44,813 nt of DNA from an uncultured Bacilli bacterium (lineage in GTDB: Bacteria; Bacillota_I; Bacilli_A; RFN20; CAG-631), in assembly GCA_947626825.1 (NCBI GenBank), contig CANQTM010000010.1:1-44813 (forward strand). The letters are read 5' to 3'. The notes under the pieces were generated by a model. It saw only the letters and a program-made list of their open reading frames with translations. It was not told the origin of the DNA and did not search any database. Shown here piece by piece: positions 1,472 through 40,779 of this stretch; positions within the stretch are counted from its first letter, which is position 1; every line of letters starts with the position of its first letter. The position numbers and the translations under genes were made by a program.

Positions 1472-2917
1472 TTAATTCTTTTTGATAGTATAAATTTTTT
1501 GTTTTTTACTTTTTGTTTTAATTGGTAAACTATAAGCTAATATTTCTTTTTCTATTAATGGCTTAATATAAGTTTTAATAAAATATGTTGGATGGCTTTC
1601 ATCATAACCAAAATGTTTAGCTATTTCTTCTTTACTACGTGGTGTTAAACAAAAATCAGTGATTTCATCAATAAAACTATCGCCTTTTGTTTGATCAATC
1701 GATTTATTATACAATGTAACTTTAAAAGTTCCTCGTTCACTTTCAAATTTTGGTTCTGGCAAACCTGCTTTTTTCATTTCTACATAAATTGTTGGAATTC
1801 CTGTATATCTATTTTCTACAATTTCTAATGTTTCCAAAATAGAGGCCATAAAAGGATTCCTAACATCAGAACGTTCTTGTCCTAATTTTTCTAATGATAA
1901 TCTTCCATATAATCCACCAGGATTTGTAATTTCCATACGATTATCATAAATTATAATTCTGATTGGTTCATTTTCTGTATAGATACTATAATCTCGATGG
2001 AGAAGCGAATTTAAAATAATTTCTCGAACTGCTTTTAAAGGATATTCTTCAATATCATCACGTTTCCCTTCTGGCGTGATTTTAGTGGCAATTTTAGTAT
2101 TATTAATAATAAAATTCATTGCTAAATTAAGCATTTCAGTAATTGTACCATCTATTCTTTTACTATCCATAAATCTAACACCTTCTGTGTTTTCAATTCC
2201 ATATTTATTTCCAATACATTTTACTGCTACAATATCTAAATTTGGTGAAATCATTTGTGGATATTTGCCAAAAATCATCATACCACAAATCGTAGGATTA
2301 CCTTTGTTATCAATGATGCCATTAGCTTTTAAGATTGTTTCTTTGTCAAGGTTAGTTAAATTTGGTTTTGTAGCTGATAATTTCGCTAAAAAACCATTGA
2401 TAGCCATTTGGTTTAAATCATCTACAGTTGTTCTTTCTGAATTACGTAATTCATCTTCTTTTTTATATTTAAAAGCATCTAAACTATAAATTTCATAGTC
2501 TGTCATTGGTAAATCAGTATCACCAACACGAATATATGAACCTTTTATTTTGCCTTTTCCTAAATAATAGCAAGGTTTACTATAAGCATCTAATTCTGGG
2601 ATCTCAACAGATAAAATAATTTTGCCTTGATATTTGCACATTGATATAACAGGTCTAATTTTAGGTTCCATCATTAAAGCTTGTTCTGTTATCTTCTTTT
2701 GAAACAAATCAACATTTTGAACCCCACAAATCTCATAATTATTTTTTTCATCTATTCCAAAAATAATAACACCACCAGCAGTATTAGAAAAACTAGAAAA
2801 AGTATCATATAATCTTTCTGGAACACCACCTGATGCTTTTTTAATTTCAATATTTTTAGTTTCATTTTTTGAAGATAAAATTGTTTCAATTATAGTAATT
2901 AATTCTGTTTCTTGCAT
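1472..2917 (-). CDS. Schlafen AlbA_2 domain transcriptional regulator / RecG-like ATP-binding protein
   Basis: A 481-residue protein with the usual three-part layout of the AlbA_2 family. The N-terminal Schlafen AlbA_2 domain (about residues 15-140) shows the IEIKKASGG start and GGVIIFGIDE. A central HATPase_c_4/RecG C-terminal-like block has AVREIILNSLLHRDY and NRMEITNPGGLYGR (about 300-350). A C-terminal winged-helix region (about 420-481) begins near TDFCLTPRSKEEIAKHFGY. Such proteins are predicted DNA-binding regulators, but the target is not known. The ATG follows GCGAGGTTAAATT. A strong sigma-A promoter and three phased repeats lie directly upstream, consistent with autoregulation (inference). 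The next gene on the same strand upstream is a broken ATPase, so it probably forms its own transcript. Confidence 0.85.
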   Translation of the reverse strand: MQETELITIIETILSSKNETKNIEIKKASGGVPERLYDTFSSFSNTAGGVIIFGIDEKNNYEICGVQNVDLFQKKITEQALMMEPKIRPVISMCKYQGKIILSVEIPELDAYSKPCYYLGKGKIKGSYIRVGDTDLPMTDYEIYSLDAFKYKKEDELRNSERTTVDDLNQMAINGFLAKLSATKPNLTNLDKETILKANGIIDNKGNPTICGMMIFGKYPQMISPNLDIVAVKCIGNKYGIENTEGVRFMDSKRIDGTITEMLNLAMNFIINNTKIATKITPEGKRDDIEEYPLKAVREIILNSLLHRDYSIYTENEPIRIIIYDNRMEITNPGGLYGRLSLEKLGQERSDVRNPFMASILETLEIVENRYTGIPTIYVEMKKAGLPEPKFESERGTFKVTLYNKSIDQTKGDSFIDEITDFCLTPRSKEEIAKHFGYDESHPTYFIKTYIKPLIEKEILAYSLPIKTKSKKQKIYTIKKN

Positions 2918-2941: not shown

Positions 2942-2970
2942 ATTATATTCTTTTTTTTACATTTTTTCAA
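2942..2970 (-). promoter_or_regulatory. Sigma-A promoter of the AlbA_2 gene
   Basis: On the minus strand TTGAAA (2970-2965), a 17-base spacer and TATAAT (2947-2942) give a near-perfect promoter 25 bases before the start codon. The first of three direct repeats abuts the -35. Confidence 0.8.
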
Positions 2971-3080
2971 TAAATTACGAAAATAAATTAAAATATTTAT
3001 GTTTTTTTTAATAGATTTCGAAAATAAATTAAAAAATATTAAAATTTTTATTAATTTTACGAAAATATATTAAAATTTAC
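2971..3080 (-). repeat. Three direct repeats phased at exactly 41 bp
   Basis: A core of about 20 bases (consensus TTWCGAAAATAWATTAAAA as read on the plus strand) occurs three times. Its CG dinucleotides sit at 2978, 3019 and 3060, exactly 41 bases apart, in a region otherwise almost free of CG. The array starts 8 bases upstream of the -35 of the AlbA_2 promoter. The spacing is close to four helical turns, so proteins bound there would lie on one face of the helix. It looks like an operator or activator array, and the binder is unknown. Confidence 0.75.
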
Positions 3081-11796: not shown

Positions 11797-13089
11797 TTAA
11801 TAAATATCTAAACTATTTTCATCTAGTAAAAAGTTAATCAATCCAATTGTAACAATACCTTTTTCATCAATTTGGGCACGGATATTATCTTTAACAACAA
11901 TTATTTTTTTAAATGAATCATTAATTTTTGTTAAAGATCTTTTTTCTTGTTGTAATTTTTCTGCAGTTGGCATTTCATAGGCTGATTGAATATAATATTT
12001 TTTATTTCCTTTGTTAGCTATAAAATTAACTTCAAGTTGTTTTTTTATTGTTTCACCATTTATTGTTTTATGAATTTCAACAACACCAACATCAACTAAA
12101 TAACCTCGAATTTTTAATTCGTTGAAAATGACATTTTCCATGATATGATTTTCTTCTATTTGTCTAAAATTCAATCTTGCATTTCTTAAACCAATATCTG
12201 TAGCATAATATTTTAATGGCGTTCCAAAATATTTTTTTCCTTTAACATCATATCTTTTAGCTTCAACAAATAAGAAAGAATCAATTAAATAAGAAAGATA
12301 TTTTTTTGCAGTTACATCACTAATAGATTGACCTTTAATACTTTTTAATGTATTTGATATCTTCTTTGGATTAGTAAGAGATCCAACAATTGAGCATAAA
12401 AAATCAACAATTGAATCTAATTCATCCTTATATAAAACTTTATTTCTATCAATAATGTCAGTCAAATACACTTTATTAATTAATGATTGTAAATATTCTA
12501 TTTTTTGTTCGTCATTTTTACGTTCAAATAAAGCAGGCAAACCTCCATATAGATGATAATCTTCCCATGCTTCATATTTATCACCACCGCGAGCCTCATA
12601 AAACTCTTTAAAAGAAAGTGGATAAACCCTTACTTCATCACCACGGCCACGAAATTCAGTTATTACATCTGAAGAGAGAAATTTAGAATTACTTCCTGTA
12701 ACATAGACATCTAAATTCTTTTTATATTGAAACCCATTTAGAACAGTTTCGAAAGCTCCAAGTTGTTGTACTTCATCTAAAAGGATATAATAGTTTCCAT
12801 CATCAACTATTTTACTATTAATATAATTTGAAAATTTATGAGGATCAACTTTCTTTTTGTTTTCACTTAAATCAATGATATTTTCACCAAGTAATTGTAA
12901 ATAATCATTAGAATCAAAAGCAAATTTAATTATATGTTCTTCATCTATGCCTGATTTTATTAAATAATTTGCAAACAAATCAAAAAGCAAAACAGACTTT
13001 CCACAGCGACGAATACCTGTAATAACTTTTATTGAGCCGTTATTCATGCGATCAATTAATCTTTGTAAATAAAGTGGTCTTTCTATCAT
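11797..13089 (-). CDS. AAA ATPase, DUF4143 family (GIRRCGKS type)
   Basis: A 430-residue P-loop ATPase with an N-terminal AAA_14-like domain and C-terminal DUF4143. Walker A GIRRCGKS is at residues 25-32. Walker B-like YYILLDEVQ and sensor-like VTGSNSKFLSS follow. A RGRGDEVRVYPLSFKEFYEA segment and the YGGLPALF motif precede the DUF4143 part, which ends in a nuclease-like fold with LEVNFIANKG and YYIQSAYEM. The start follows AAAGAGG at a good distance. It is the intact homologue of the pseudogene at 3122-3652. A GGCAAATTTGCC palindrome precedes it. No partner gene is visible and the function in the cell is unknown. Confidence 0.9.
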   Translation of the reverse strand: MIERPLYLQRLIDRMNNGSIKVITGIRRCGKSVLLFDLFANYLIKSGIDEEHIIKFAFDSNDYLQLLGENIIDLSENKKKVDPHKFSNYINSKIVDDGNYYILLDEVQQLGAFETVLNGFQYKKNLDVYVTGSNSKFLSSDVITEFRGRGDEVRVYPLSFKEFYEARGGDKYEAWEDYHLYGGLPALFERKNDEQKIEYLQSLINKVYLTDIIDRNKVLYKDELDSIVDFLCSIVGSLTNPKKISNTLKSIKGQSISDVTAKKYLSYLIDSFLFVEAKRYDVKGKKYFGTPLKYYATDIGLRNARLNFRQIEENHIMENVIFNELKIRGYLVDVGVVEIHKTINGETIKKQLEVNFIANKGNKKYYIQSAYEMPTAEKLQQEKRSLTKINDSFKKIIVVKDNIRAQIDEKGIVTIGLINFLLDENSLDIY

Positions 13090-13110
13090 AATATACCTCT
13101 TTGAATTTAT

Positions 13111-13122
13111 GGCAAATTTGCC
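13111..13122. promoter_or_regulatory. 12-bp palindrome GGCAAATTTGCC upstream of ATPase gene
   Basis: A perfect inverted repeat 22 bases before the ATPase start codon, unusually G/C-rich for its surroundings. It is followed by A-runs on the minus-strand 5' side. It is a candidate operator with no known owner. Confidence 0.45.
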
Positions 13123-13195
13123 CTTTTTTCTTAATGTACTACTAGTTTAATATTAAAATCAAGATTAATTTAAAGACTATAGATAATCAAAAAGA

Positions 13196-14386
13196 TTAAA
13201 TTTCTAATAACCATTTGATAATGTTTTTATGAATAATGCCATTTTGTGATAAATCAAATTTATCTGTAGATATAACATATTTTGGAAAATCATCAAAAAT
13301 CTTCTTATAAATGCCAAATTCTCTTTCATAAATTTTTTCATCATCACCAATTTGATAACAAACTTGATAATATTCTTTGTTACCGTCTTTAAGTGCAATA
13401 AAGTCAATCTCGCCATTATCTAATGAACCAATTTTAACATCATAACCGCGTCTTATTAATTCATTATAAACAACATTTTCTAAATAAGCACCTAGTTGTT
13501 CTTTCTTTGAGATATTCATAATTCTACCAAATCCCAAATCAGTTAAATAATATTTATATTTGCCATTTAAGATTCTTTTACCTCTAACATCATAACGATC
13601 AACTTTAGAAATTAATAATCCTTTGCACATGTATTCAATATAATTATAGATTGTTTCTTTAGAAACCATTCGATTATCATTGTTTTTAAAATAAGATACT
13701 AAATTATCAGCAGAAAAAACTTGTGTTGGAGTAGTCATAATATATTCAACTATTCTATTAAATAAATCAATATTATTAATTTTAAATCTTTTAATGATAT
13801 CTTTCATAACAATAGAATCAAAAACATCAGATAAATAAGTCCTTATTTCTTTTTCATTTTCAAACCTAAACCTTTGTGGCATGCCACCCCATTTTAGATA
13901 ATCAATAAACAAATCTTCTAAGTTTTCTTGACCTTTTAAGACACAAACTTCGGCAAATGAAAATGGCTGCATTTTGAAACTGATATATCTTCCTGATAAA
14001 AGAGTCGCTAAATCACTTGACAATAAATTACTATTAGAACCAGTAATAAAAATAGAAACATTTTTAGTGGCTTTTAAAGAAATGATTGTTTTTTCCCATT
14101 CACTAACATTTTGAATTTCATCAAAAAAAAGATAATATTTTTTTTGATCTTTTATTAAATTTAAAATATATGTATTTAAATCTTTAAAATTTTTAATATC
14201 CACATAAGTAACATCTTCAAAATTGATATATATTATATGATTTTTATTTGTTTTTTTGTTTATTTCATTAGCTATTTGGCCTAACAATACTGATTTGCCA
14301 CAACGTCTAATACCTGTGATGACTTTAATCAAATCTTCATCATAAAATGGTCTGATATTTTGCAAATATTTTTCTCTTATAATCAT
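13196..14386 (-). CDS. AAA ATPase, DUF4143 family (GIRRCGKS type)
   Basis: A 396-residue paralogue of the preceding ATPase. Walker A GIRRCGKS is at residues 25-32, Walker B-like YYLFFDEIQNVSEWE near 105, and sensor-like FITGSNSNLLSS near 125. The DUF4143 part begins after LSGRYISFKMQPFSFAEV and WGGMPQRF. The C-terminal nuclease-like fold has GEIDFIALKDGNKEYYQV, as in predicted restriction-fold domains. The ATG sits behind AGAGGCGAAA; a second ATG four bases upstream is out of frame. A fully consensus promoter and a pair of 25-bp direct repeats lie upstream. The two adjacent ATPases run the same way with 106 bases between them but have separate upstream signals. Confidence 0.9.
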   Translation of the reverse strand: MIIREKYLQNIRPFYDEDLIKVITGIRRCGKSVLLGQIANEINKKTNKNHIIYINFEDVTYVDIKNFKDLNTYILNLIKDQKKYYLFFDEIQNVSEWEKTIISLKATKNVSIFITGSNSNLLSSDLATLLSGRYISFKMQPFSFAEVCVLKGQENLEDLFIDYLKWGGMPQRFRFENEKEIRTYLSDVFDSIVMKDIIKRFKINNIDLFNRIVEYIMTTPTQVFSADNLVSYFKNNDNRMVSKETIYNYIEYMCKGLLISKVDRYDVRGKRILNGKYKYYLTDLGFGRIMNISKKEQLGAYLENVVYNELIRRGYDVKIGSLDNGEIDFIALKDGNKEYYQVCYQIGDDEKIYEREFGIYKKIFDDFPKYVISTDKFDLSQNGIIHKNIIKWLLEI

Positions 14387-14410: not shown

Positions 14411-14439
14411 ATTATAATATTAACATTTTCATTTGTCAA
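14411..14439 (-). promoter_or_regulatory. Consensus sigma-A promoter of ATPase gene
   Basis: Minus strand TTGACA (14439-14434), 17-base spacer, TATAAT (14416-14411): a perfect match to consensus, 25 bases before the start codon. A direct repeat begins two bases upstream of the -35. Confidence 0.9.
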
Positions 14440-14440
14440 C

Positions 14441-14505
14441 TTTGTACTATGTAGCGAACTTTTTAACTATTTTAAGATATTTTGTACTATGTAGCGAACT
14501 TTTTA
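14441..14505. repeat. Two identical 25-bp direct repeats phased at 40 bp
   Basis: The unit, core GTACTATGTAGCGAACTTTT, occurs at 14441-14465 and 14481-14505 without a mismatch; starts are 40 bases apart. It contains GC-rich islands (GTAGCGAAC) that stand out from the A/T background. It abuts the -35 of the ATPase promoter, like the arrays at 2971-3080 and 39111-39156. Confidence 0.85.
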
Positions 14506-37743: not shown

Positions 37744-39042
37744 TTAGTCTTTCAAACACCCAATAGGGATGACATATACACCATCATCACGTTTATATGC
37801 AATTTCTCCTCCTGTTATTACTAATAGCAAATTTGGCTCTTGCAAATGATGTTTAGGATTTTCAACATTATGATTATATATCAAATTGCTTAGTTGACAC
37901 AAATGTTGTGCACCTTCTTCAATTTGTTTATTACCAAGTTTAAATTCAATCAACGCATACTTGCCATTGTCAAGATGTAATACACAATCGGCTTCCAATC
38001 CAAAGCGATCGCGATAATATGATATTCTTCCACCAAGCAAAGATGAATAAATTTTTAAATCTCTTATACATAATGTTTCAAATATGAAACCAAATGTATT
38101 TAGGTCAAGCAACAATTTTTCAGGAGTAAGTGCTAGTGCTGCGACAGCTATGGATGGATCAGTAAATTCTCTTTTATTGCAACTTCGAATAGATGTAGCA
38201 GAACGAATAGATGGAGTCCATGCTGGGACATCTTCTATCACGAATAAACGCTTTAACACATTTAAATAAGCATAAAGAGTTGTCTCGCTAAAATTTAAAA
38301 AGTTTGCTTGCATGTCTGATAAGATTGAAGTATTGGAGGCAAGCGTAGAAATGTTTCTTGCGTAAGAACGTAATAAAGTTCTCATTCGTTGTGGGTCACG
38401 CTTAACACCATCAACACTTGAACAGTCCTCATCACAAATACTTTGTAGGTATGCTTTTGCAACAAACAATGCCCCATTTTCTGTTTTGACATTTAAACTT
38501 GCAGGCCAACCACCACGGCATGCAGCAAACACAAGACGTTCAAGAGAAAGAGGAGAAGTTATACCATCAACATCAAGATTTGTGTTATCAAACAATTCTT
38601 TCAAAGAAATAGCACCACTTGATTCTTTTGACTCGTAAAGACTCATTGGGTACATCTGTAATTTTGCAATTCTGCCAGTTCCTGAGTGCATGATTTGTTT
38701 GTCATCAACAGAATTAGATCCTGTCAATATGAATAATCCAGTTTCTTGCCTATTATCTACAGCTGTGCGTACTGCATCCCAAAGAACAGGTGCAATCTGC
38801 CATTCATCAATAAGTCTAGGATTTTCACCAACGAGAAGTAAGGAAGGCTTAGTTTCGGCAGTTGCAAGATATCCTTTTACTTGATCAGGATCTTGCATTT
38901 TTAACACGCTTTTTGCTTGCATTTCGGCTGTAGTTGTTTTACCACACCATTTTGGCCCAACGATAAGAACTGCACCAATATAAGAAAGCGTTTCTTGCAA
39001 TTGTATATCCATAAGTCTTGGATTATAAATATATTTGTTCAT
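37744..39042 (-). CDS. AAA ATPase, DUF4143 family (GPKWCGKTTTA type)
   Basis: A 432-residue paralogue of the gene at 86-1378. Walker A GPKWCGKTT is at residues 29-37, RLIDEWQ follows, then FILTGSNS. The C-terminal nuclease-like block has ALIEFKLG, and the protein ends VIPIGCLKD. I start at ATG 39042 behind GTGAGGTTTACT; an upstream ATG adds ten residues but lacks a ribosome site. G+C is visibly higher than in its paralogue, so the two copies have different recent histories despite similar protein sequence. A strong promoter and tandem repeats lie upstream. Confidence 0.9.
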   Translation of the reverse strand: MNKYIYNPRLMDIQLQETLSYIGAVLIVGPKWCGKTTTAEMQAKSVLKMQDPDQVKGYLATAETKPSLLLVGENPRLIDEWQIAPVLWDAVRTAVDNRQETGLFILTGSNSVDDKQIMHSGTGRIAKLQMYPMSLYESKESSGAISLKELFDNTNLDVDGITSPLSLERLVFAACRGGWPASLNVKTENGALFVAKAYLQSICDEDCSSVDGVKRDPQRMRTLLRSYARNISTLASNTSILSDMQANFLNFSETTLYAYLNVLKRLFVIEDVPAWTPSIRSATSIRSCNKREFTDPSIAVAALALTPEKLLLDLNTFGFIFETLCIRDLKIYSSLLGGRISYYRDRFGLEADCVLHLDNGKYALIEFKLGNKQIEEGAQHLCQLSNLIYNHNVENPKHHLQEPNLLLVITGGEIAYKRDDGVYVIPIGCLKD

Positions 39043-39067
39043 AGTAAACCTCACTGATTTTTTTAAT

Positions 39068-39097
39068 ATCATACATTAATAAGTTGTAAAATGTCAA
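39068..39097 (-). promoter_or_regulatory. Sigma-A promoter of ATPase gene
   Basis: Minus strand TTGACA (39097-39092), 18-base spacer, TATGAT (39073-39068), 26 bases before the start codon. Tandem repeats begin 13 bases upstream of the -35. Confidence 0.8.
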
Positions 39098-39110
39098 GTT
39101 ATTAAAGTAA

Positions 39111-39156
39111 TTTGGAGTATTTTGATAAAGAGATTTGGAGTATTTTGATAAAGAGA
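39111..39156. repeat. Two identical 23-bp tandem repeats upstream of ATPase promoter
   Basis: The unit, core TTTGGAGTATTTTGATAAAG, occurs back to back at 39111-39133 and 39134-39156 without a mismatch. It is the third array in this window placed just upstream of a strong promoter of an accessory ATP-binding gene. Confidence 0.9.
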
Positions 39157-39423
39157 TTTGCTGTAAATATTTTGGATAAATTAAAAGTGATATGTAAATG
39201 TCATATTGTAATATATAATCTAATAATACAATTTTTTCATATAGATTATGCTAAAAGATGATTTCATAAAAAATTATAAATTCAAAAGTAAAATTTTTTA
39301 TTAATTGAATAAAAATTTGAATCAAATCTTAACCTTTTAAGAATTTGATAATAAAAAGAAACAATCATTTTTTTAACAACAAAAAATAATTTATTGTGTT
39401 TTTCATTGAAAAATGGCAAATAA
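39157..39423. other. A/T-rich gene-free stretch with one hairpin
   Basis: No reading frame with a ribosome site. ATCAAAT and CTTAA (39321-39332) pair with TTAAG and ATTTGAT (39337-39349), with one bulged A and a CCTT loop, giving 12 base pairs. No T-run follows. It lies 75 bases upstream of the TIR gene promoter and may be a small RNA or a structural remnant. Confidence 0.45.
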
Positions 39424-39483: not shown

Positions 39484-40779
39484 ATGAAAAATATTGATTT
39501 TTTTATAAGTTATTCATCTAATGACAAAAACATAGTTGATTCTCTTGTCGAGTCACTTGAAAGTATGGGAGCAAAATGTTGGTATGCTCCAAGAGATGTT
39601 CAAGGCCGTTATGCTAAAGCTATTTGCGAGGCAATAGAAAATGCAAAAGTATTTTTATTATGCCTTTCTAAAAATTCAGCTAAATCTGAACATGTTTTAA
39701 ATGAAATAGAAATGGCTTATAGCCACAAAAAAATGACCAATGGAGCTATTAGTATTGAACCTGTTTGTATTGAAAATATAGATATTGATTGTAAAGAATT
39801 TGATGAAATAATGTATTATATTAGAAGAATAAATTTTATTATTCCTCAAGATATAGGTTCTTCATATTTAATTGCTAAAGAAGTAGTAAAAAATAACAGT
39901 TCTTTATTTGGCGCTTTTGAATCTAAAAAGAAAGAACGTACTGCTAGTTCATATTTTACTGATGATATAGAGAAAAAACGTTTGATTATTCAAAATGAAT
40001 TGATAAAGAAATTTGATCATGAAGTTTATGAAAAAGTTTATAATTCGTTTCATAATCCTATAGTTTTAGATGTTGGATGTGGTAATGGCGATATTCTTAT
40101 TAATCGTTTTGGTGTGGATAATTATACTTTAATAGGTGTAGATCACGATGAAAAAAGTATTTTAGAAGCCAAAAATAATCATAATTTTGCTAAGTTTTAT
40201 AATTTAGATGTTGAAGATGATAATTTTGCTGATAAACTTGATGATATAATGATACAAAATAATATTCAGTCCTTTGATATTATTCATATTTCTATGGTTT
40301 TATTACATTTAAAATCACAATGTAAATTATTAAGAATTTTACGCCGTGTTTTGGCTAATAATGGCATTTTAATAATTAAAGATATTGATGATGGTTTAAA
40401 TTTTGCATATCCTGATGATAATGATGATTTTGAAAAGATATACAAACTTTGTGCACACGATGAACTTGCTGGTGATCGTCATAATGGTCGACAAATATAT
40501 ACCAATTTAGTTAGAGCTGGATATAAAAAAATATCTTTAGAAAAACAAGGTTTTTCAAGTATTGGTTTAAATTATGATGAAAAAGAAAATCTTTTTAAAT
40601 TATATTTTAAATTTATTTTAGACGACATTAAATACATGCATGAAAAATATCCTAACAATATCCAAATTGAAGAAGAATACGAATGGTACAAACAAAACTA
40701 TGAACGTATTCATGATAATTTTATGATGGATGATTTTGTTTTTTCACTTGGCTTTCAAATTTATTTAGCTCAAAAATAG
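39484..40779 (+). CDS. TIR domain fused to class I SAM methyltransferase
   Basis: 431 residues with two domains. Residues 1-140 are a TIR domain: strand A FFISYSSNDK, BB-loop region CWYAPRDVQGR, and helix C SEHVLNEIEMAY, where Glu74 is in the place of the catalytic glutamate of NAD-cleaving TIR enzymes. Residues 160-431 are a class I methyltransferase. Motif I is LDVGCGNGD (195-203), acidic LIGVDHDE follows for motif II, and FDIIHISMVLLHL and NNGILIIKDIDDG fill motifs IV-V. A helical C-terminus with YKQNYERIHDNF ends it. No signal or membrane segment. TIR enzymes in defence usually cleave NAD or make cyclic ADP-ribose signals; here the usual STING, SIR2 or sensor partner is replaced by a methyltransferase. 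Ribosome site AAGGTAAGGG; own promoter and terminator; next to a toxin-antitoxin pair and IS remnants. Confidence 0.88.
   Translation: MKNIDFFISYSSNDKNIVDSLVESLESMGAKCWYAPRDVQGRYAKAICEAIENAKVFLLCLSKNSAKSEHVLNEIEMAYSHKKMTNGAISIEPVCIENIDIDCKEFDEIMYYIRRINFIIPQDIGSSYLIAKEVVKNNSSLFGAFESKKKERTASSYFTDDIEKKRLIIQNELIKKFDHEVYEKVYNSFHNPIVLDVGCGNGDILINRFGVDNYTLIGVDHDEKSILEAKNNHNFAKFYNLDVEDDNFADKLDDIMIQNNIQSFDIIHISMVLLHLKSQCKLLRILRRVLANNGILIIKDIDDGLNFAYPDDNDDFEKIYKLCAHDELAGDRHNGRQIYTNLVRAGYKKISLEKQGFSSIGLNYDEKENLFKLYFKFILDDIKYMHEKYPNNIQIEEEYEWYKQNYERIHDNFMMDDFVFSLGFQIYLAQK

Follow-up and report, generated by a model that had tools for sequence, protein, structure and literature searches.

S01 genes, members of the phage-defence candidate family PDC-S01, carry arrays of direct repeats at their own promoters in many members of clades A, B and C, with a sequence specific to the gene and a period set by the clade. 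On the comparison of sequences, each S01 protein of these clades probably binds its own array and thereby autoregulates its gene.

The window, by which we mean the whole 44,813-nucleotide stretch of DNA that was analysed, holds the following features.

1472 to 2917, minus strand: gene with SLFN_AlbA_2 and HATPase_c_4 domains and repeats of its own (Pfam)
2957 to 3076, minus strand: three 41-bp-spaced copies upstream of the AlbA_2 gene
11797 to 13089, minus strand: PDC-S01 clade D gene, directly downstream of the gene at 13196-14386 (Pfam, PADLOC)
13196 to 14386, minus strand: PDC-S01 clade C gene, AAA_14 ATPase, winged helix and DUF4143, 396 aa (Pfam, PADLOC, AF2 model)
14411 to 14416, minus strand: -10 element TATAAT
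14434 to 14439, minus strand: -35 element TTGACA, 17-bp spacer
14441 to 14465, minus strand: candidate operator copy 2, proximal, one base above the -35
14444 to 14459, minus strand: 16-bp imperfect dyad GTTCGCTACATAGTAC of the proximal copy
14481 to 14505, minus strand: candidate operator copy 1, distal, identical to copy 2, with its dyad at 14484-14499
37744 to 39072, minus strand: PDC-S01 clade A gene (Pfam, PADLOC)
39092 to 39097, minus strand: -35 element TTGACA of the clade A gene, 18-bp spacer to TATGAT at 39068-39073
39103 to 39160, minus strand: 23-bp-period array (candidate operator) of the clade A gene, a period common to 11 of 12 clade A genes

The 25-mer TAAAAAGTTCGCTACATAGTACAAA is present twice on the minus strand, at 14505-14481 and 14465-14441, with an offset of 40 bp and a 15-bp linker between the two identical copies, exactly as the original prediction of two identical, 40-bp-phased 25-bp repeats upstream of an ATPase gene had it. 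Reading on from the proximal 25-mer, the promoter consists of a single G, TTGACA (14439-14434), 17 bp and TATAAT (14416-14411), followed by the ATG at 14386; the gap above the -35 is therefore one base and not the two bases claimed. This promoter had also been called the only fully consensus one in the window, and it is indeed the sole 12/12 match to TTGACA-17-TATAAT; since shuffled windows give 0.45 such matches on average, the perfect promoter is not decisive, and we set it aside as the key feature. A full-consensus -35/-10 is not general in the S01 family. The repeat is the stronger signal and is not due to chance: in the whole 44.8-kb window, exact words of at least 20 nucleotides repeated within 100 bp occur only as the pair at 14441-14505 and a pair at 39110-39158, both of which stand at DUF4143 genes. 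The two further sites said to share this plan proved real, at 2957-3076 (period 41 bp) and 39103-39160 (period 23 bp).

The 16-bp heart of the repeat, GTTCGCTACATAGTAC, has only its two promoter matches at 0-2 mismatches in the 1.84-Mb genome. Uniqueness was established for three repeats, each of which was found nowhere else in its genome; these three are each confined to their own promoter, so that the apparent regulon is one gene, and the idea of a genome-wide regulon was dropped. In close orthologues, 62-83% identical to the window gene, the layout of a 16-bp dyad followed by (A)AAATTGACA is retained, with the dyad itself altered to GTACGATACATCGTAC (locus L083), GTACACTTGAGTGTAC (L084), GTATTTTATGGAATAC (L085), GTCCTGTGCATAAGAC (L086) or TTACTACATACAGTAA (L087). 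Aligned dyads lie at the position of the proximal copy in L083, L084, L085, L086, L087 and L099.

The protein encoded at 13196-14386 matches the PADLOC PDC-S01 model PDLC04787 over its full length (E 6.4e-144, 477.8 bits, residues 1-395), and Pfam, above cut-off, finds AAA_14 with Walker motifs (E 4.6e-37) and a DUF4143 C terminus (E 1.4e-14); an NCBIfam scan gave no match. G25, G30, K31, D89 and E90 are invariant. Four proteins, one from each clade (those at 13196, 11797 and 37744 and the clade B protein of L006), were scanned against PADLOC, and all match PDC-S01. Pfam also finds AAA_14 plus DUF4143 proteins encoded at 86-1378 and 11797-13089, and the genome holds 22 DUF4143 genes. The gene at 13196-14386 is flanked by a GFO/IDH/MocA oxidoreductase gene and a further S01 gene. 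According to PMC12988326, S01 takes fourth place by frequency among the defences of prokaryotes, with 29,494 occurrences in bacteria and 9,986 in archaea; the same source calls phage-defence candidates (PDCs) unvalidated. Clade C-like S01 genes are present in 238 plasmid records (175 of them Acinetobacter) and 18 phage records of the plasmid and phage collections, and the family is therefore mobile. S01 genes are also clustered, at 11797-14386 and on contigs C4, C21 and C46 of the same genome.

For the clade A gene, the start of the longest open reading frame (39072) overlaps the -10 of its own promoter, so translation probably begins at the ATG at 39042, which follows a GAGG ribosome site. 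This gene is adjoined by an unusual fusion at 39484-40779, in which an N-terminal TIR domain is joined to a SAM methyltransferase domain.

We compared 130 S01 genes, drawn from the window's genome, from 20 relatives within the order and from six named relatives, with 139 intergenic promoters of the window's genome; two top-scoring genes of the control set were S01 genes and were removed. The tree supports clades A, B and D, while C consists of neighbouring branches beside D and is not a closed clade. Many of the genome's 22 DUF4143 genes have a different direct repeat in their upstream region. The best offset equalled the clade period of 23 bp in 11/12 clade A genes, 32-33 bp in 36/44 clade B genes and 39-42 bp in 18/37 clade C genes, against 3/139, 4/139 and 9/139 controls, respectively, at the same offsets. 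A direct-repeat score of at least 19 was reached by 10/12 genes in A, 35/44 in B and 15/37 in C, compared with 1/32 in D and 3/139 controls, so that neither the 32 clade D genes nor the 139 control promoters show a clade-type pattern by this score. The proposed check for an enrichment of promoter repeats at DUF4143 genes thus returned a strong one in clades A, B and C and none in clade D or the controls. About half of the clade C genes have no detectable 40-bp direct repeat (18/37 at the period), and inverted repeats scoring at least 14 are enriched in this clade (22/37 versus 23/139 controls, p=5e-10); the candidate operator of clade C is a dyad, often abutting the -35.

Arrays contain two to four copies, and their sequences are gene-specific and common mainly to close orthologues; part of clade B shares a loose theme ending in AAAAGTG in the orientation of the gene (21 versus 2 reversed). 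Core identity between copies is 97%, while linkers are 31% identical against the 32% expected from composition. Fixed spacing with random linkers points to spacing that has been maintained, as binding sites for an ordered assembly would leave, and not to recent duplication.

The clade D gene at 11797-13089 has no promoter repeats and serves as an internal negative in the window. In some cases a clade D gene that lacks repeats immediately follows, in the same orientation, a clade C or B gene that has them, and clade D genes may for this reason depend on their neighbour's promoter. Upstream of one clade D gene (L011/L052, upstream of 1848), a 28-bp unit with a GCGGGTACACGC dyad is present in two copies 136 bp apart, which differs from the close-spaced arrays of the other clades.

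The periods recur outside the order. Among new genes from other families of the class, 17/26 in clade B had z>3, 16 of them at 32/33 and one at 66, and 7/23 in clade C had z>3, all at 39/40. In a set of 136 clade B genes, 100 had a strong repeat, 88/100 of these at 32/33 and 8/100 at 64/66. Annotated plasmid records showed clade B genes at 32/33 in Segatella, Prevotella, Fusobacterium, Acinetobacter, Vibrio, Collinsella (50% GC) and Agathobacter, and clade C genes at 40 in Monoglobus and, weakly, in Ruminococcus albus, Streptococcus and Moraxella. Periods are thus kept in Bacteroidota, Fusobacteriota, Gammaproteobacteria, Actinomycetota and Clostridia, with different sequences. Of ten class B plasmid genes two lacked the expected period, as did several of class C: in these records the R. 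albus B gene had no repeat, the Vescimonas B gene had another offset, and C genes of Methanosphaera, Lactobacillus, Ilyobacter and Bacteroides lacked the expected period. Taken together, these results establish the arrays, their clade-fixed periods, their absence from clade D and control promoters and their recurrence across phyla.

AlphaFold models (AF2, pLDDT 92) predict an architecture of ATPase, winged helix (about residues 206-281 of the window protein and 240-318 in clade B) and a PD-(D/E)XK-like C-terminal domain, a putative nuclease by its motif and by general knowledge of DUF4143. Clade B keeps EID...PIEVK, with K392 invariant. In clade C, including the protein at 13196-14386, EID is kept and the last element is QVxY, with Q341 invariant and no lysine (alignments A1 and A4); because the lysine of (D/E)xK is absent, unlike in clade B, the clade C domain may be altered or inactive. 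A sequence search against solved structures yielded no more than distant matches to ATPase or Fur-like pieces, and residues 202-269 in clade C gave weak Fur/PerR-like matches. The nearest solved structures are the archaeal AAA+ ATPases PABY2304 (2qen) and SSO1545 (2fna), which have the same ATPase plus winged-helix fold: the clade B model aligns with 2qen at Z 16.6 over 265 residues and with 2fna at Z 15.3, and 2fna is the top structural match of the window protein in Foldseek. The clade B model also has the NLR/CED-4-type arrangement of ATPase and winged helix that is characteristic of STAND proteins, aligning with NLR and CED-4 structures at Z 12-13.5 over 258-283 residues, a likeness of fold only, and with Avs5 at Z 11.8. 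S01 proteins are accordingly predicted to be STAND-like ATPases that also contain a winged helix and a PD-(D/E)XK-like domain; the aligned STAND core does not include their nuclease-like DUF4143 C terminus. In NLR-type STAND proteins the equivalent winged-helix domain is known for autoinhibition and not for the reading of an operator. Archaeal Orc1/Cdc6 initiators combine AAA+ and winged-helix domains bound to origin repeats, and the origin-DNA-bound structure 2qby was among the Foldseek matches; here, however, there is no origin, and the S01 repeats stand at a protein-coding promoter.

As to which part of the protein would read the array, we compared repeat similarity with protein similarity among clade B pairs of at least 45% identity, with overall identity removed, a cut chosen after the all-pairs analysis. 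Among contiguous blocks, the winged helix tracked best (rank 1-2 of 359 windows; p=5e-6 in the column test; CI 0.012-0.085 in the bootstrap over genes), which establishes winged-helix tracking in clade B. It exceeded the ATPase domain in 99.7% of gene bootstraps and the nuclease domain in 83%, the latter not a significant excess. The ATPase domain, which is nearest the promoter, tracked negatively with repeat similarity, and this argues against mere linkage, for which the opposite order is predicted. The clade B effect is small and holds at the level of the domain only, and in clade C (43 genes) no significant domain signal was detected (p=0.22). A recognition-helix code was also considered and rejected: residue 277 was top in a 35-gene set and lost its rank in 96 clade B genes, where the helix p was 0.03-0.05 in wide pair sets and 0.13-0.18 in restricted pairs, and seven close clade C orthologues that looked code-like were followed by the absence of a domain signal in the 43 genes.

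We hypothesize that each clade A-C gene has a private operator array at its own promoter, on which the encoded S01 protein would dock with its winged helix, thereby controlling how strongly it is expressed. The equal spacing (23, 32-33 or about 40 bp) would reflect the geometry of a bound oligomer, with neighbouring subunits or dimers on successive copies, so that spacing would be conserved while linkers drift. Divergence of the operators would prevent cross-talk between the many paralogues that share a cell, and with 22 S01 genes in this genome the need for diverging sequences would be understandable. Arrays in clades A and B often run through the -35 and -10 or end by the ribosome site (L065, L111, L138, L007), and because arrays overlap or abut the -35, the -10 or the 5' UTR, the outcome would most often be autorepression, so that an ATPase-nuclease that is costly or toxic would stay scarce until its nucleotide or oligomer state is altered by some trigger. 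Repression is a guess read from operator position, and the -35-abutting position in clade C could mean either repression or activation. Clade D, of the same fold family and with no array, shows that self-control is not universal.

The case for activation is that S01 bound upstream of the -35 would recruit RNA polymerase and form a bistable switch, as in some restriction-modification (R-M) C proteins. Of the scored clade C genes, about half have their proximal copy 0-1 bases from the -35, a place typical of activators, and C proteins of R-M systems combine activation with repression (PMC3115060, PMC3695507). The full-consensus promoter of the window gene, however, needs no activator, and clade A and B arrays often lie across the -35/-10 or by the ribosome site, where a bound protein would block; we regard auto-activation as unlikely. 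We give similarly little credence to the array being the operator of some other gene-specific regulator, unlinked or neighbouring. The arrays do resemble ordinary operators beside a -35, and S01 binding is itself something we infer, but each checked repeat stands only at its own promoter, which would demand many private regulators per genome, and moreover the period follows the S01 clade across phyla and repeat similarity tracks the S01 winged helix.

Readings without a cognate DNA binder fare far worse. That the repeats are a by-product of slippage or recombination, or a copy-number device for phase variation, would fit the variation from two to four copies, but it is strongly disfavoured by exact spacing with random linkers, by periods that are equal in unrelated genomes and differ by clade, and by the lack of repeats at clade D and control genes. 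The regular unit-spacer layout might recall an element acting in RNA or a CRISPR-like guide array; many copies precede the predicted -10 and would thus not be transcribed, there are only two to four of them, and their linkers show no conservation, making this scarcely credible.

Autoregulation by the encoded protein thus remains our preferred reading, in which the majority of clade A-C S01 proteins control their own transcription through the winged helix on a private array. The prediction of a shared control logic with matched, diverging binders is supported by sequences that differ from gene to gene, spacing fixed by clade and, in clade B, winged-helix tracking. Its likening to R-M controller or toxin-antitoxin switches stands for the shared logic and probably fails for a separate controller or antitoxin, the encoded ATPase itself being the most likely binder. 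A direct-repeat site at its own promoter is a design trait that the window gene shares with R-M C proteins, a matter of shared design and not of membership: the window locus has no small HTH controller and no adjacent restriction or methyltransferase gene, and its only candidate binder is the 396-aa ATPase. Nor does it fit a type II toxin-antitoxin system, as no small partner ORF (at least 80 aa) lies behind the promoter and the next gene is another S01. The HsdC promoter of Mycoplasma gallisepticum carries direct repeats, (GTGTTAN5)2, to which HsdC itself binds (PMC5282649). R-M C proteins are alike in such repeats, in operators that differ between systems and in their link to defence, but they are separate controllers of restriction and modification genes, whereas the putative binder here is the ATPase-nuclease itself, and the HsdC period is 11 against 23/33/40 for S01. 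The literature searched by title and abstract describes no promoter architecture or regulation for the DUF4143/COG1373/S01 family; the protein family is known as a candidate, and cognate, ruler-spaced operators across phyla appear to be new within that literature.

A bolder version, which we consider a long shot, is that S01 on its private array is at rest and under guard, as an NLR-like STAND ATPase with the nuclease held on the operator by its winged helix, so that loss, titration or modification of the DNA during infection would derepress the gene and free the nuclease. If this were true, sensing and gene control would be one event.

Repeats were likewise found by the companion check at AlbA_2/HATPase_c_4 promoters, where genes of the order (L028 and L286-L314 among the loci) have 10-12 bp tandem repeats upstream in 13/33 cases versus 4/139 controls (p=8e-6); the same plan is therefore present in an unrelated ATP-binding family. 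These repeats are gene-specific, about one helical turn long and placed before the start codon, and the window's AlbA_2 gene is atypical in its period of 41 bp.

S01 is among the commonest prokaryotic defence candidates, its defence function still putative, and a cognate site that can be read from sequence offers a direct biochemical handle, with the bound DNA and its spacing predictable for hundreds of S01 genes. If self-binding is confirmed, the family would provide a natural library of winged-helix/operator pairs for the evolution of DNA specificity, and an NLR-like ATPase would be seen to regulate itself through a domain that usually serves autoinhibition.
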